Positions 23,815 through 60,707 of a stretch of 64,000 nt of DNA are shown here, in pieces. The position numbers and the translations under genes are program-made. Under the pieces are notes generated by a model. That model saw only the letters and a program-made list of their open reading frames with translations, had not been told where the DNA came from and did no database searches. Position 1 is the stretch's first letter. Each line of letters opens with the position of its first letter. The DNA is from Bacteroidota bacterium (GTDB lineage Bacteria; Bacteroidota; Bacteroidia; Palsa-948): the NCBI GenBank assembly GCA_016213405.1, contig JACRAM010000100.1, positions 1-64,000 on the forward strand. The letters run 5' to 3'.

Positions 23815-25848
23815 ATGAAAAAAATATTTTCCCACCGCCCTAAACCCCGTAGGATTAGAATTATCCAACGGGGTAAAGGGTGCTATAGATTTTTTGTATT
23901 TCTTCCGCCAGTTGGCGGATTGGTTCTACTTCTCTTTCCATTTAACTTAGGAAGCGCAATCATTCGGCAGGATGCAGCTCAAACCAAATCATCACCCAAA
24001 AAATTTCCGCAGGGATATTTTGTTGAGCCCACCGATTCTTCGCTGAGCATTGCCGGAAACTTCGGGGAGATACGTCCCAATCATTTTCATGCAGGCATAG
24101 ATATTAAAACGGGTGGGAGAGAAGGCGCTTTCATTTATGCCGCAGCCGATGGGTATGTGTCGCGCATAAAAATTTCTCCATGGGGATATGGCAAGTGTAT
24201 TTACATCACGCATCCGAATGGATATGTTACTGTTTACGGACATCTTCAGCGATTGTACGGAAAGATTGCCAAGTACCTGGAACTGGAACAGTACCGGTTG
24301 GAGCAATATGAGGTGGAACTTTTTCCTGATTCAAATTTACTGAGAGTGAAACAATGCGACACGGTTGCCATTTCAGGAAACACAGGTGGCTCGCAATCTC
24401 CGCATCTGCATTTTGAAATCCGCGATGCGGTAACAGAGAACGCGTATAACCCGTTTCTTTTTGGATTCAGGATACATGATACCGTTCCCCCAAAACTAAT
24501 GACGCTTGCCATTTACCCCGTTGAACATCCGTCCTACGGGGTTTATCCTGCGAATGATTCAAGTTCGGTGAATGGAAAAAATGTTCCGAAGAAAATAAAA
24601 GTTTACCCCGTTGGACAAGGTCAAAAGTCCTACGGGGTTTATGGAAGTAAGGGCAAATACAAACTTTCTTCGGCTGAAAAAATAACTGTGAGCGGTGATA
24701 TCGGCTTTGGAATTGAAACGTATGATTATGCCAACATTAAAGAAGCGGGAAAACTGGGAGCATACTCAGTTGATTTATACATTGACGGACATCGGATTTA
24801 TTATCACGAGCTGAACGAAATTTCTTTTGACGAATCCCGCTATGTAAATTCCCTCATTGATTATGCCGAAGAAGCAAAGAGCAATAAGGAAATTCAGAAA
24901 TGTTTTCGTGAAGAGAACAATATGCTTTCTATTTATCAGTGCATGGTGAATGAAGGGTTGTTTCGGTTTGATGACTCGCTTTCTCATCCGGTGAAGTTTG
25001 TGGTAAAAGATTTTTTCGGGAACACTTCAAGTTTGGAGTTCAAAGTTCGGAGTTCGGAGAAGAAAATTAAAACACTCCCAACTCCCAACTCCCAACTCCC
25101 AACTAAAATGAAATGCTCTGACCTTAACAAATACGAAACCGAAAACATAAAAATCGAAATTTCTCCCTGTGCATTGTATTCAGATATTGATTTTGATTAT
25201 TCCATGAGCAAGGATACGCTGCCCGGAACTTTTTCTCCGGTTCACACCATTCACAAAGAAGTGGTGCCCTTGCAAGTCAACTATTCTCTTTCTATAAAAA
25301 CAAAATATCTTTCTAAAAACCTTCAGTCAAAAGCTACCATTGTTTTGCTGGATGGGAAGAATAATATGACGGATCAGAAGGGCAGCCCATCCCTAACCCT
25401 TCCCGAAGGGAAGGGAACTGCACGCCCAAGTTCTCCCCCTTCGGGGGAGTTAGTGGGGGCATTGTGGCTCACCACCCAAACCCGCTACTTCGGGCGTTTT
25501 ACGGTTGCGCTTGATACGGTTGCTCCCACCATCAAGCCATACAATATTTATAATGGCAAGAACATGGCAAAGGCAAAAACAATTTCCATTATCATTTCAG
25601 ATAACCTCACAGGAATTAAATCATATCGCGCCACCATTGACGGCAAATGGGTGCTGATGGAATACGAACCGAAGAAGGCGTTGTTGTTTTATGAATTTCA
25701 GACCCCCACTCTTATCTCCCCCAAAGGGGGAGAGGCTCCTTCCTCCCGACAAGTCGGGACGGGGGAAGGGGTGGCACACACCTTCGTTCTCACTGTTACT
25801 GACGGAAAAAATAATGTCAGCACTTACAAGGTAGAGTTTGTGAGGTGA
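23815..25848 (+). CDS. M23 family metallopeptidase with inserted repeat elements
   Basis: A large LytM-type peptidase (677 residues from the ATG at 23815; an upstream in-frame start at 23752 would overlap the divergent promoter). The catalytic domain (about residues 85-235) has the zinc motifs HFHAGIDIK and HLHFEIRD. Such enzymes cut peptidoglycan cross-links outside the inner membrane. The rest is beta-rich linker. Repeat elements interrupt it in frame at 23844-23874, 24514-24545, 24604-24641, 25029-25105, 25381-25466 and 25701-25777, giving peptides such as TLPTPNSQLPT and SPSLTLPEGKG. The hydrophobic N-terminal anchor itself contains a CCGCCAGTTGGCGG palindrome. Confidence 0.88.
   Translation: MKKIFSHRPKPRRIRIIQRGKGCYRFFVFLPPVGGLVLLLFPFNLGSAIIRQDAAQTKSSPKKFPQGYFVEPTDSSLSIAGNFGEIRPNHFHAGIDIKTGGREGAFIYAAADGYVSRIKISPWGYGKCIYITHPNGYVTVYGHLQRLYGKIAKYLELEQYRLEQYEVELFPDSNLLRVKQCDTVAISGNTGGSQSPHLHFEIRDAVTENAYNPFLFGFRIHDTVPPKLMTLAIYPVEHPSYGVYPANDSSSVNGKNVPKKIKVYPVGQGQKSYGVYGSKGKYKLSSAEKITVSGDIGFGIETYDYANIKEAGKLGAYSVDLYIDGHRIYYHELNEISFDESRYVNSLIDYAEEAKSNKEIQKCFREENNMLSIYQCMVNEGLFRFDDSLSHPVKFVVKDFFGNTSSLEFKVRSSEKKIKTLPTPNSQLPTKMKCSDLNKYETENIKIEISPCALYSDIDFDYSMSKDTLPGTFSPVHTIHKEVVPLQVNYSLSIKTKYLSKNLQSKATIVLLDGKNNMTDQKGSPSLTLPEGKGTARPSSPPSGELVGALWLTTQTRYFGRFTVALDTVAPTIKPYNIYNGKNMAKAKTISIIISDNLTGIKSYRATIDGKWVLMEYEPKKALLFYEFQTPTLISPKGGEAPSSRQVGTGEGVAHTFVLTVTDGKNNVSTYKVEFVR
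23844..23874. repeat. Class B element inside the M23 N-terminus
   Basis: ACCCCGTAGGATTAG and TTATCCAACGGGGT form inverted arms. The same CCCCGTTGGA/TCCAACGGGG or CCCCGTAGGA/TCCTACGGGG pattern recurs at 24514, 24604, 26963, 27045 and 38452. Confidence 0.75.
24514..24641. repeat. Two class B elements in frame in the M23 gene
   Basis: Two copies (24514-24545 and 24604-24641) each start TACCCCGTTG and end CCTACGGGGTTTAT. Each therefore encodes the same ends, YPV at one side and SYGVY at the other, with different loops. Confidence 0.8.
25029..25105. repeat. Low-complexity inverted element in the M23 gene
   Basis: The left arm iterates GTTCGGAG-type steps and the right arm iterates CCCAACT steps. 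They are roughly complementary and separated by an A-rich centre. A related element sits in truA at 43105-43192. Confidence 0.7.
25381..25466. repeat. Class A compound element in the M23 gene
   Basis: Two successive hairpins (CCCTTCCCGAAGGGAAGGG and CTCCCCCTTCGGGGGAG) with flanking pyrimidine-rich and G-rich ends. Read in frame as SPSLTLPEGKG and PSSPPSGELVG. Confidence 0.8.
25701..25777. repeat. Class A compound element in the M23 gene, second copy
   Basis: Hairpin CTCCCCCAAAGGGGGAG followed by a TCCCGACAAGTCGGGA palindrome and a GGGGGAAGGGGTGG tail; read in frame as LISPKGGEAPSSRQVGTGEG. Confidence 0.8.
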
Positions 25849-26962: not shown

Positions 26963-27145
26963 GTTCACCCCGTTGGATACTTATCCAACAGGGTGAACAA
27001 TAGAATAATTGAACATTTGAATTACGAAATCAGAAGTAAAATGCATTCACCCCGTAGGATATTGTTTTAATTTTTGATTCCCCATTGAACCATGTAATTA
27101 TCCAACGGGGTGAACTTCGAATGTTCGCTATTCAAATGTTCAAAT
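26963..27145. repeat. Two nested class B inverted elements
   Basis: Element 1 (26963-26998): GTTCACCCCGTTGGATA against TATCCAACAGGGTGAAC, an almost perfect hairpin. Element 2 (27045-27115): ATTCACCCCGTAGGATA against TATCCAACGGGGTGAAC. Around the second, GAACATTTGAA and TTCAAATGTTC-type steps add another inverted pair. The whole intergenic gap (26942-27183) is made of such repeats. Confidence 0.8.
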
Positions 27146-27183
27146 GTTCTTCATTCAAAATAGATTTTAGAGATGCCCAAAAT

Positions 27184-28284
27184 TTACTTCCGCCCTTCAA
27201 TATACCTGTTCAAATCATCAATGCTTGATTCAAAGGTGAAGGCATCATTGAGTTTGTAATAATTGCCCGGGTCAAAGGTTTTTCCCCAAGCCAGTTTGGC
27301 AAGGTCAAGGCGGGTATCTTCAAAGCTGAACACCAGCATTATTTCTTTCACTTGTGACGAAAGCAGGCAGTTGCTTCCGAGTATTTGTTTCGCCATGGTG
27401 AGTTTGCTGTCTTCAAATGATTTTGCTTTGATGCTCGCCTTGGCGCTTTCAAAATCTGGGGGGCTCATGGGCCAGGGGCAGTTGTTGGGTCCGCTGTAGC
27501 CGGGCAATACATACACAGTGCCTCCGCTTCCGCTGGTGGTGGTTGACGAAGTAGTGGTAGAGGTCATGGTGGATGTGGAAGAAGAGTTGGAAGAACCGTC
27601 ATTCACATTCACATTCATATTGAAGTTCACACCGGGCGCGTTCATTCCCACATTCACATGATCGCCTGTTGGCGCAGTGCCGGTGGTGGTGGTGGTCACT
27701 GAAGTGGTGGTGGATTGGTTTACAGGCGGAGGAACGGTGGAATAAACAATCACCGTTTGCCCTTGTGTGGGTGGCGCTTGCGCGATAACCGCTTCGCTTC
27801 GGTAAGCGAGTTTGTATCCCTTGTCAACTTTTTTCAGATTGCCGGCAACGCCAATCAAACCGCCTTCTGTCATGGCGCTGTCTGAACCTTTTGCCGTGGT
27901 GCCTTTTTTCATTTTGAGCGCATACACAAATTCATATCCCTGCACTTCATTGCCGCCCGACATTAAATAAACTTTCTGGTCAAGGTCAGGAGTTTTGCCA
28001 TCTGCGAAAATGATTTTTGTTGAAACCATCGGCTGCATAAGACCGGTTACTTTCACATTGGTTTCGGGTTTGGCATTTTGTTTAATGCCGTTCAGCACCA
28101 CATAAAACTGTTCGCCCTGTTCGCTGAAAATGACGAGGTTGTTCTGGGCAAAGCCCGATGTGCTGATTAGCAAATTAGCTGATATGCAGATAAACAGCGC
28201 AACTCCGAACGCGAGGATGTGTGGTTTCATTTTCACATTTTCACATCTGCACATTTGCAAATTTGTTTTGTTTTGTTTTTTCAT
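27184..28284 (-). CDS. DUF4476 domain-containing secreted protein
   Basis: About 366 residues from the ATG at 28284. The C-terminal 95 residues match DUF4476, with paired repeats FEDSKLTMAKQILGSNCLL and FEDTRLDLAKLAW, then DPGNYYKLNDAFTF. The middle (about 175-265) is a Thr/Ser/Asn-rich linker with long TTT and SST runs. The signal peptide core is HILAFGVALFICISANLL. The ATG at 28230 would start right at that core; the 18 residues before it (including MCRCENVKM) come from a CACATTTGCA-iterated repeat. The longer frame to 28488 overlaps the divergent gene and is rejected. Confidence 0.82.
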   Translation of the reverse strand: MKKQNKTNLQMCRCENVKMKPHILAFGVALFICISANLLISTSGFAQNNLVIFSEQGEQFYVVLNGIKQNAKPETNVKVTGLMQPMVSTKIIFADGKTPDLDQKVYLMSGGNEVQGYEFVYALKMKKGTTAKGSDSAMTEGGLIGVAGNLKKVDKGYKLAYRSEAVIAQAPPTQGQTVIVYSTVPPPVNQSTTTSVTTTTTGTAPTGDHVNVGMNAPGVNFNMNVNVNDGSSNSSSTSTMTSTTTSSTTTSGSGGTVYVLPGYSGPNNCPWPMSPPDFESAKASIKAKSFEDSKLTMAKQILGSNCLLSSQVKEIMLVFSFEDTRLDLAKLAWGKTFDPGNYYKLNDAFTFESSIDDLNRYIEGRK

Positions 28285-28388
28285 TGGATTGGTTTTTATG
28301 GTTTGGATGGATGCGTTTACAAATGTTATGCCAAAATCTTCCGCGAATGTAAATATTTTAACTTCGCCTTGTGAAGTGGAAGGAAAAA

Positions 28389-28420
28389 AAAGGGAATAAG
28401 GAAATACAGGGAATAAGGGA
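28389..28420. repeat. Left flank repeat of the four-helix gene
   Basis: GGGAATAAGGAAATACAGGG followed by AATAAGGGA, a purine-rich iterated arm. Its inverted counterpart lies at 28895-28942 on the other side of the gene. Confidence 0.7.
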
Positions 28421-28425
28421 ACAAC

Positions 28426-28830
28426 ATGAACAAAACAAAAAAATATACGGAACCAGAAATTAATAGCTCCTATGTGGAAGAGCCGCATGTTGGTTATAAT
28501 GAAGCAAAAGATTTTACTTCATTAATATGCTGGCAGAAAGCACGTAGTATTAAATTATTTTTTTATGCTAAAATAATTCCTTTAATGCCAAAAGCCGAAG
28601 AATTCAACTTGGCTTTTCAAATGAGGAAATCCTGCGTTAGTATAACAGAAAATATTGCAGAAGGATACGAAAGATTTCATTACCAGGAGTTGTTGCAGTT
28701 TTGCAGAATTGCAAGAGGATCGATGTTTGAATTGAAGGATGATTTAATTACATGCATTGACTTAAAATTTATTTCTGAGGATTTATATAATGAGGGAATA
28801 AAGTTAATTGAGGGGGCAAAGTTACATTGA
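28426..28830 (+). CDS. Four helix bundle protein (23S rRNA-intervening-sequence type)
   Basis: A 134-residue protein. The core (about 32-134) shows the family pattern: FTSLICWQKARSIKL, FNLAFQMRKSCVSITENIAEG and the fourth helix ending EGIKLIEGAK. The family was first seen inside 23S rRNA intervening sequences, but most copies stand alone; function is unknown. The usual C-terminal end (LNGYMKYVKNEK) is present at 28827-28880 in the +1-shifted frame, ending TGA 28881-28883, so one base has probably been lost near 28827. The gene is bracketed by inverted purine-rich repeats. Confidence 0.8.
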   Translation: MNKTKKYTEPEINSSYVEEPHVGYNEAKDFTSLICWQKARSIKLFFYAKIIPLMPKAEEFNLAFQMRKSCVSITENIAEGYERFHYQELLQFCRIARGSMFELKDDLITCIDLKFISEDLYNEGIKLIEGAKLH

Positions 28831-28894
28831 ACGGTTATATGAAATATGTTAAGAATGAGAAATCTAAATTTACAGATAAATGAAACTTGAATTT

Positions 28895-28942
28895 AACCCT
28901 ATTGCCTGTATTTCCTGTATATCCCCTATGTCCCTTATATCC
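28895..28942. repeat. Right flank repeat of the four-helix gene
   Basis: CCTGTATTTCCTGTATATCC and CCTATGTCCCTTATATCC, the reverse-complement type of the element at 28389-28420. The pair encloses about 475 bases containing one gene. Confidence 0.7.
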
Positions 28943-28950
28943 TTTCAACG

Positions 28951-30369
28951 ATGAAAAATATTCTTCTCATAGGTGCCGGGCGTTCTGCCTCTACATTAAT
29001 AAAGTACCTGCTTGATAATTCTCAAAAAGAGAACTGGAAGATCACCGTTGCTGATATTTCTCTTGAACTCGCTGAGCAGAAAACAAATCATCATTCAAAT
29101 GCGCATGCCATTGCTTTGGATATTAATAATGAAGAGCAACGAGCTGCAGAAATCAGTAAGGTTGACTTGGTTATTTCCATGCTTCCCGCCACCATGCATC
29201 TGCCTGTGGCGAAAGAATGTTTGAAGCAGAAAAAACATCTGGTCACTGCAAGCTATGTTTCCAAGCAGATGAAAGAATTGGATGCGGATGCAAAAAAAGC
29301 GGGCGTAATTTTTCTGAATGAGATTGGATTGGACCCGGGCATAGACCATCTTTCCGCCATGAAGGTGATTGATGAAGTGAAAGCCAAAGGCGGAACGATG
29401 ATAACTTTCAAATCCTATTGCGGTGGATTAGTAGCTCCCGAATCAAACGATAATCCATGGGGATATAAATTCACCTGGAACCCGCGTGCTGTGGTGATGG
29501 CAGGGCAGTCTGGTGATTCCACCGGAGCAACTGCTCAGTTTCTAGAGGATGGAAAAACAAAATATGTTCCTTACACAAGATTGTTTTCGAATGTTGAAAC
29601 AATTTCTGTGGACGGTTGGGGAAAGTTTGAAGCATACGCCAACCGCGATTCTCTTTCTTATATGGAATTGTACGGATTACACGATGTAAAAAATATGCTT
29701 CGCGGCACTTTGCGTATGCCCGGCTTCTGCAAAGCGTGGAATGCCTTCATTCAACTCGGGCTTACGGATGATAACTGCAAAGTCTCTAACTCTTCAACTA
29801 TTTCTTACGCTGAACTGATTGATTCCTTTTTGCCCTCACCCCATCCCTCACCCCGAGGGAGAGGGAGAAAGGGAGAGGGCTCTGTAAAAAAGAAACTGGC
29901 AAAGTTTCTCCGCGAAAAAGATAACTCCCCTGTAATGAAAAAGCTGGATTGGCTTGGCCTATTTAAGAATCAGAAAATAGGTTTACAAAATTCATCTCCC
30001 GCAGAAATTCTTCTTGACTTATTAATGAAGAAATGGAGTTTGAAAGAACACGATAAAGACATGGTGGTGATGCAGCATCTTTTTGAATACAAAGAACCAA
30101 GTCTCAAGTCTCAAGTCTCAAGTCTCAAGAGAACAGCCAAAGGCAAAATTCAGAAACTAACTTCATCGATGGTTGTGATAGGTGATGACCAGATTAATAC
30201 TGCCATGTCAAAAACAGTTGGGCTTCCACTCGCAATTTCTACCAAACTTATTCTGAACGGAAAAATAAATCTTACTGGTGTGTGGATTCCTACTGTAAAA
30301 GAAATTTACAATCCTGTTCTGGCGGAACTGGAAAAATTTGGAATTACATTTATAGAAAAACATAACTGA
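28951..30369 (+). CDS. Saccharopine dehydrogenase family protein
   Basis: A 472-residue NAD(P)-dependent enzyme of the saccharopine dehydrogenase/LYS9 group, acting in lysine metabolism in the cytoplasm. The N-terminal Rossmann motif is ILLIGAGRSAS (about 4-14). Further marks are VISMLPATMHLPVAKEC, NEIGLDPGIDHLSA (about 124-137) and SYCGGLVAPESNDNPWGYKF. Two repeat elements are read through in frame: PSPHPSPRGRGRKGEGS (29832-29882) and SLKSQVSSLK (30098-30129). Both lie between conserved blocks, so the fold is likely intact. Confidence 0.9.
   Translation: MKNILLIGAGRSASTLIKYLLDNSQKENWKITVADISLELAEQKTNHHSNAHAIALDINNEEQRAAEISKVDLVISMLPATMHLPVAKECLKQKKHLVTASYVSKQMKELDADAKKAGVIFLNEIGLDPGIDHLSAMKVIDEVKAKGGTMITFKSYCGGLVAPESNDNPWGYKFTWNPRAVVMAGQSGDSTGATAQFLEDGKTKYVPYTRLFSNVETISVDGWGKFEAYANRDSLSYMELYGLHDVKNMLRGTLRMPGFCKAWNAFIQLGLTDDNCKVSNSSTISYAELIDSFLPSPHPSPRGRGRKGEGSVKKKLAKFLREKDNSPVMKKLDWLGLFKNQKIGLQNSSPAEILLDLLMKKWSLKEHDKDMVVMQHLFEYKEPSLKSQVSSLKRTAKGKIQKLTSSMVVIGDDQINTAMSKTVGLPLAISTKLILNGKINLTGVWIPTVKEIYNPVLAELEKFGITFIEKHN
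29832..29882. repeat. Class A element inside the saccharopine dehydrogenase gene
   Basis: CCCTCACCCCATCCCTCACC followed by CCGAGGGAGAGGGAGAAAGG: one pyrimidine arm and one purine arm. In frame, no stop. Confidence 0.85.
30098..30129 (+). repeat. CAAGTCT tandem iteration inside the same gene
   Basis: Four copies of CAAGTCT (period 7) encode SLKSQVSSLK. There is no obvious inverted partner nearby. Confidence 0.75.
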
Positions 30370-60423: not shown

Positions 60424-60707
60424 AATCTACGAAAAACGAAAGGTTACGAAAAATACGAAACGGAGTTTGGTGTTTGGTTTTCATCTTTCGTATTTTTCGT
60501 ATTGATTCGCGTTTCGTTGATTGGGGAAGTCAACTATTCTGCCACTGCCCCAAAAAGAAACTTTTCAGGATATTATGGCATGATTAGCTTTAGAAATATG
60601 ACAGGCGGGAGGGGATATTAATAAGGTATGACAGAATGGCTATGTAAGATGTAAGAGGGCAAAGGGCAGATGTGTTTCCCCTCTGCCGTCTGCCATTATA
60701 CATCTTC
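60424..60707. repeat. Gene-free stretch with two inverted elements
   Basis: Element 1 (about 60424-60520): iterated ACGAAA steps on the left (CTACGAAAAACGAAAGG) and TTTCGTATTTTTCGTATTG on the right. Element 2 (about 60635-60707): AGGGCAAAGGGCAGATG against CTCTGCCGTCTGCC, with TGTAAGATGTAAG and TACATCTTCC as outer arms. The outer right arm overlaps the end of the arsC gene. No gene is seen in 60387-60695. Confidence 0.65.

Follow-up and report, generated by a model that had tools for sequence, protein, structure and literature searches.

The intervening sequences (IVS) of 23S rRNA genes are the closest described relatives of the locus considered here. The Coxiella 23S IVS has a length of 444 nt and a 28-bp stem, with RNase III as the enzyme concerned (PMC4990558). 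The IVS of Coxiella and Leptospira are presented as selfish elements of about 400-450 nt, with an ORF of the PF05635 family in the loop between inverted terminal arms, and the encoded protein (S23p, or IVP) is given as a homopentamer with ‘no known function’ (PMC4990558). Direct repeats of the TAACTGA heptamer have been reported from intergenic positions close upstream of start codons (MacGregor, 2015; PMC4679880), and in these respects they resemble the arms treated below. Small elements bounded by inverted repeats and situated near genes include the MITEs of Neisseria, such as Correia and nemis, which can reportedly be RNase III substrates. In the REP/RAYT system, a protein lineage is matched to its own short inverted repeats, and the RAYTs carry a Y1 transposase domain. 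Avd, a component of diversity-generating retroelements, is a four-helix bundle. No description of heptamer arms around S23p genes outside rRNA was found in a literature search for which preprints and most subscription journals were outside the scope.

In the 64,000-nucleotide stretch of Bacteroidota DNA that was analysed (the window), a unit of roughly 500 bp consists of one four-helix-bundle (4HB) gene and two inverted arms (Table 1). Two of its features are those of the IVS type, namely a PF05635 ORF and inverted repeats at the ends from which a stem enclosing that ORF can form; the unit lies outside the 23S rRNA gene, between protein-coding genes. It is placed in front of a saccharopine dehydrogenase-like gene (ATG at 28951), the other side being occupied by a divergent gene, so that it is not enclosed by two co-directional neighbours. 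The left arm is purine-rich and the right arm pyrimidine-rich, the two are mutually complementary, and the 20-nt core found by the repeat search (28399-28418 / 28897-28916) is 90% complementary, with 66 nt separating the 4HB stop codon from the start of the right arm. An ungapped search for inverted pairs across the whole window (score of at least 14) returned 12 pairs, the focal one among them, as compared with 2, 1 and 0 in three Markov shuffles, and the original prediction of a 4HB gene between inverted arms is thus borne out. RNA folding of 28384-28950 (z -2.87) predicts that the arms pair, whether the MFE or the centroid structure is taken. Pfam detected PF05635 alone in the unit, with no transposase domain. 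The promoter-like stretch resembles the Bacteroidetes -7 promoter element TAnnTTTG, and a similar stretch occurs 5' of the same downstream gene in three genomes of the genus (G004, G003 and G001). Inside the saccharopine dehydrogenase-like ORF, a hairpin-like CCCTCACCCC / GGGAGAGGG stretch (29824-29885) and an iteration of the AAGTCTC heptamer (30094-30130) were also observed, the frame being intact at both.

Table 1. Features of the focal unit and of its surroundings in the window.
Feature	Position	Strand	Remarks
Upstream host gene, DUF4476 protein, divergent	27184..28230	-	Pfam PF14771; same neighbour in G004 (synteny with L055)
Promoter-like TTTTAACTTCG	28356..28366	+	likely promoter of the downstream gene; from sequence
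Left arm, iterated GGGAATAAGG / GGAAATACAGG	28392..28419	+	reads GGGAATAAGGAAATACAGGGAATAAGGG; sequence, repeat search, window-wide inverted-pair search
4HB gene, PF05635 (23S_rRNA_IVP), 134 aa	28426..28830	+	Pfam E 1.3e-24
Right arm, iterated CCTGTATTTCC / CCCTTATATCC	28897..28944	+	reads CCCTATTGCCTGTATTTCCTGTATATCCCCTATGTCCCTTATATCC (limits approximate); end ~6 nt 5' of next start codon
Downstream host gene, saccharopine dehydrogenase-like	28951..30369	+	Pfam PF16653 and PF03435; co-directional with the element

The fold of the focal protein was predicted with a pLDDT of 88.7. Its best PDB matches, 2gsc and 2rld, are titled as conserved hypothetical proteins or proteins of unknown function and were also matched by a profile built from 30 family members. 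Avd (4dwl, 8ub7) followed more weakly, at a query-normalised TM of about 0.63 and only about 10% identity; the predicted fold is Avd-like. No reverse transcriptase was detected among the three other neighbour proteins scanned by Pfam. There was no evident conserved catalytic set, A1 containing a single invariant column. Against 295 genomes of the class, the best identity of the focal protein was 51%, over a short stretch, with at most 46% among the top full matches.

Arms of this kind are common around PF05635 genes, of which this genome has 23 and the genus, across its seven genomes, 80 in all. The expectation that 4HB genes in related genomes would also be flanked by inverted arms held for 59 of these 80, whose flank complementarity exceeded the maximum of 202 control ORFs, and 69 exceeded the control 95th percentile; the control ORFs were all taken from G000, and the thresholds are approximate for the other genomes. 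Several of the 11 low-scoring genes still have arms by eye, and 121 of 6320 pairings passed the control maximum when the flanks of the same 80 genes were mispaired. The arms pair with each other across a median of 399 nt. In homologue sets reaching beyond the genus, mostly into other genera, the control maximum was surpassed by 18 of 29 homologues of the focal gene, by 21 of 27 and 21 of 29 homologues in two other subfamilies, and by 49 of 79 loci in a GTDB set that includes isolates of Pedobacter, Flavobacterium, Chryseobacterium and Hymenobacter. For this last set, 80 nt were needed on each side, and 79 of 80 loci were kept, with loci at contig edges (L278, L300 or another) falling out. The layout had been described as common to a DUF559 unit in the same window, and DUF559 genes do carry the same signal (10 of 24, a count that takes in long fusion proteins and leaves out six loci lacking usable flanks), as do GxxExxY genes (17 of 30). 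Internal stops, as expected of selfish elements, occur in some copies (L020, L068).

The arms are composed of iterated heptamers, with base-match autocorrelation peaking at 7, 14 and 21 nt. At these lags, values of 0.450, 0.396 and 0.373 were obtained for the genus left arms (baseline 0.320), 0.440, 0.412 and 0.375 for the right arms (baseline 0.303), and 0.464, 0.438 and 0.390 for the 79-locus set. Both homologue groups share the heptad peaks, and the outer flanks are flat. The GxxExxY right arms show a weak peak at 9 to 10 nt instead of the heptad, and several GxxExxY arms (L154-L183) contain words of the CACAGAG / CTTTGTG type, unlike the 4HB heptamers.

The heptamer word follows the protein subfamily. 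Two groups were assembled from the 295-genome class sample: group A, with 27 homologues of L022 (L214, L218 and L221 being left out), and group B, with 29 homologues of L008 (L244 being left out); the omitted loci were queries or already in the genus set, and four of the 56 loci retained (L224, L249, L254 and L265) lie in genus genomes. For 49 of the 56 loci, the best flank match from another genome came from a member of the same protein group, a number reached in 0 of 1000 permutations (mean 27.7), while in a control 160 nt further out the nearest match fell within the group in 29 of 56. Group A has words of the TAAATCC type and group B of the CTTTAAAC/TTGAACC type. A third word, TACT[TC]AA or AATACT[TC], picked after viewing the flanks of the L001 homologues, is present in 31 of 79 of these; the other groups have it in 3 of 27 and 1 of 29 loci, and the outer windows in 4 of 79. 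Since the focal protein has no close relatives among the genome contigs searched, this out-of-sample comparison rests on other subfamilies and not on the focal word. Within the genus, non-orthologous 4HB pairs of at least 140 bits had a median flank similarity of 25.5 (n=41, with the double-element site L097/L099 left in despite its homologous flanks), versus 14.5 for pairs with no hit (n=1171). In the five pairs of similar copies at unrelated sites that were examined, the alignment covers 410-464 nt and runs into the arms, one such example being L021 and L022, which lie in the same genome and encode proteins 89.8% identical. Terminal inverted repeats are common to copies at unrelated sites within a protein subfamily, and these comparisons show, at the level of sequence, that arms and gene have been inherited and moved as one unit. 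The original prediction that small genes travel as cargo holds in part. Gene and arms do move together, similar proteins being found with similar arms at unrelated sites and the gene being missing from the focal site in sister species, whereas a generic inverted-repeat carrier is not upheld: each protein lineage has an arm word of its own, so that the arms seem to belong to the element as its cognate component and not to serve as a neutral vehicle.

The units also have a characteristic position relative to host genes. Of the genus 4HB genes lying between two co-directional genes, 67 share the orientation of their neighbours and 0 oppose it (55 and 5 for control ORFs); a further 7 resemble the focal gene in that their upstream neighbour is divergent, and for 4 the next gene downstream is convergent. 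In this count, two of the 80 had no called neighbour, and the output of the simple gene caller was wrong for L078 at least. The corresponding figures in the 79-locus set are 73 and 0. Where the arms of genus units are strong, the start of the left arm lies at a median of -3.5 nt from the upstream stop (n=60) and the right arm ends at a median of 1.5 nt before the downstream start (n=60). The units thus occupy the space that runs from a promoter or upstream stop codon to the next start, in the orientation of the host transcript and with little or no spacer. Survival bias in compact operons may be the source of part of this orientation and position bias, since the controls are skewed as well. 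Two further candidate features were considered. The word AAATACA occurs in 27 of 80 genus 4HB genes versus 9 of 216 control genes, yet in only 4 of 56 loci of the two homologue groups, which makes it a genus-level motif and not a universal internal one. A role of the arms as three-frame stop cassettes was rejected, the effect being weak (left 0.52 versus 0.42 shuffled, right 0.28 versus 0.20).

The focal site was compared among genomes. The 4HB gene is absent from it in all five other genomes of the genus that gave a match for the neighbour gene, so that no case of the same gene at the same place without repeats was encountered; the sixth, G005, gave no match for the focal neighbour, and both neighbours are adjacent in G004 only. 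In G004, the two neighbours enclose no gene but only a hairpin, whose GGTATAAGG-type arms are separated by a short spacer. A short hairpin is present in G003, and G001, G002 and G006, where the upstream neighbours differ, have neither gene nor hairpin. For other units, unit-free junctions were found in sister species, and at some of these the stop codon overlaps the start codon or almost does (L178 and L131 versus L179; L102 versus L153). The DUF559 unit of the window (L131, 48850-49161 plus flanks) has GC-rich CCCTCTCC-type arms, and its operon junction is occupied by a GxxExxY gene in L178 and empty in L179, with an overlapping TAATG. Different cargo at one junction was also seen for 4HB in L071 and GxxExxY in L155 and L161, and for 4HB in L078 and GxxExxY in L165 and L181. 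Shared junctions of this sort are not by themselves proof of a hot spot, since genomes that carry tens of units can be expected to have a few sites in common by chance. At a thiolase junction, a 4HB gene is present in 22 of the 79 loci (within L276-L340), from several Bacteroidota families and with differing arm words. The identities of 4HB protein and thiolase are weakly correlated there (rho 0.27, Mantel 45/2000, over 22 loci with L311 removed for a short thiolase match and L002 added), as in one pair with 95% thiolase and 43% 4HB identity. Pure vertical descent at this junction was rejected on the basis of that rho, and descent appears to be mixed with replacement.

Taken together, we consider it a little better than an even bet that the unit is an IVS-like selfish element residing outside rRNA, made up of arms and a cognate 4HB protein and carried on host transcripts. 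The 4HB protein would bind its own heptamer arms, and the unit would be expressed from host transcripts, in which the arms may pair and loop the gene out between its neighbours as in 23S intervening sequences; such looping-out would lower the cost of insertion. Compared with the 23S IVS, the unit differs in lying outside rRNA, in front of protein-coding genes and in 23 copies in one genome, and in having heptamer-iterated arms specific to each protein subfamily. Correia and nemis differ in that the present unit encodes a protein, to which its arm sequence appears to be cognate, and the REP/RAYT system in that the unit has only a four-helix bundle. A broader proposal, which is put forward tentatively and may well prove too wide, is that the ubiquitous ‘four helix bundle protein’ recognises heptamer arms in a sequence-specific manner and is the sole protein of widespread mobile elements of operon junctions and 5' leaders that have no recognisable transposase, each lineage having evolved its own heptamer and the 23S IVS being the special case that landed in rRNA. 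If true, the family would constitute a natural set of matched protein and repeat pairs, and the lineage-dependent heptamer would be a direct, testable candidate ligand, the first concrete lead for a very common orphan protein. The 23S intervening sequences, so far a curiosity of rRNA, would become a single branch of a far larger class of elements.

Tests for an RNA stem bear on the principal rivals. Among 105 arm pairs, mismatches on the sense strand comprised 172 G-U and 227 A-C, so that a G-U excess is absent and the difference is reversed (p=0.007). Orthologous arms showed 95 single and 10 paired double changes (12 of 14 orthologous pairs scored, L079/L084 and L129/L130 being dropped for weak arms), and compensatory evolution as proof of an RNA stem was rejected on this count. 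As far as arm sequences can tell, both tests argue against long-term selection for such a stem. A DNA-level element of the MITE or transposon type, with the heptamer arms as subterminal binding sites (iterons), an enzyme supplied in trans and an incidental RNA stem, consequently stays a serious rival, although we regard it as unlikely. The iterated words in both arms would suit it, and the arms-only forms at the focal site in G004 and, in shorter form, G003 resemble MITEs. Nonetheless, inspection by eye of 14 site comparisons with relatives at about 70-90% flank identity turned up no clean target-site duplication, the unit has no transposase domain, and a symmetric DNA element would be expected to keep a fixed orientation (67 to 0, 73 to 0) only under additional selection. 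The lack of a clean duplication in these comparisons and of an evident catalytic set also counts against the IVS-like reading.

A true mRNA intervening sequence, in which the arms would pair in the host transcript, RNase III would cut the stem and selection would keep the pairing, is suggested by analogy and is slightly less probable still. The protein family, the similar size and the terminal stem are those described for the Coxiella 23S IVS (PMC4990558), and both the predicted pairing of the focal arms (z -2.87) and the sense orientation of the units would agree with it. The lack of a G-U excess and the scarcity of double changes point the other way, as does the 23S rRNA of the genus, where no 4HB-sized insert is visible in G003 and G004 (matches of 2916 and 2918 bases per 2925 model positions). 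A third 23S match in the genus, L354 (G006:C54), is GC-rich, aligns poorly to its genus mates and is probably from a contaminant contig.

It is quite improbable that the arms are a mutational product, heptamer slippage and template switching having perfected inverted repeats around an ordinary resident gene. Iterated words and the dominance of single changes would be natural outcomes of such a process, and of 9 distinct TAACTGA-triplet loci in the class sample, where the repeats are perfect, none had a 4HB gene detected in its vicinity. It would, however, leave the unit-free junctions unexplained, as well as the arm words common to a protein group across genera, and such arms are absent around the 202 control ORFs. 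The same nine loci led to rejection of the TAACTGA repeats (PMC4679880) as relics of 4HB elements; the units may be a source of the heptamer repeats that precede start codons, although the TAACTGA case did not fit. Least probable is that terminator hairpins flank a host gene of regulatory or toxin-antitoxin-like function, for although the intercistronic position would be in keeping with it, the arms pair with each other over a median of 399 nt rather than locally, and sister species have either nothing or a gene of another family at the same junction.

Other inverted repeats were observed in the window. At 60445-60501, the arms TACGAAAAATACGAAA / TTTCGTATTTTTCGTA form a hairpin around a spacer of 25 nt and enclose no gene, possibly a MITE-like form. 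Two interleaved inverted repeats, of the CACCCCGTTGGA and GAACATTTGAA types, occupy 26963-27150, and the CCCCGTTGGA / CCTACGGGG motifs of that stretch recur at 23841-24641 and in L007.
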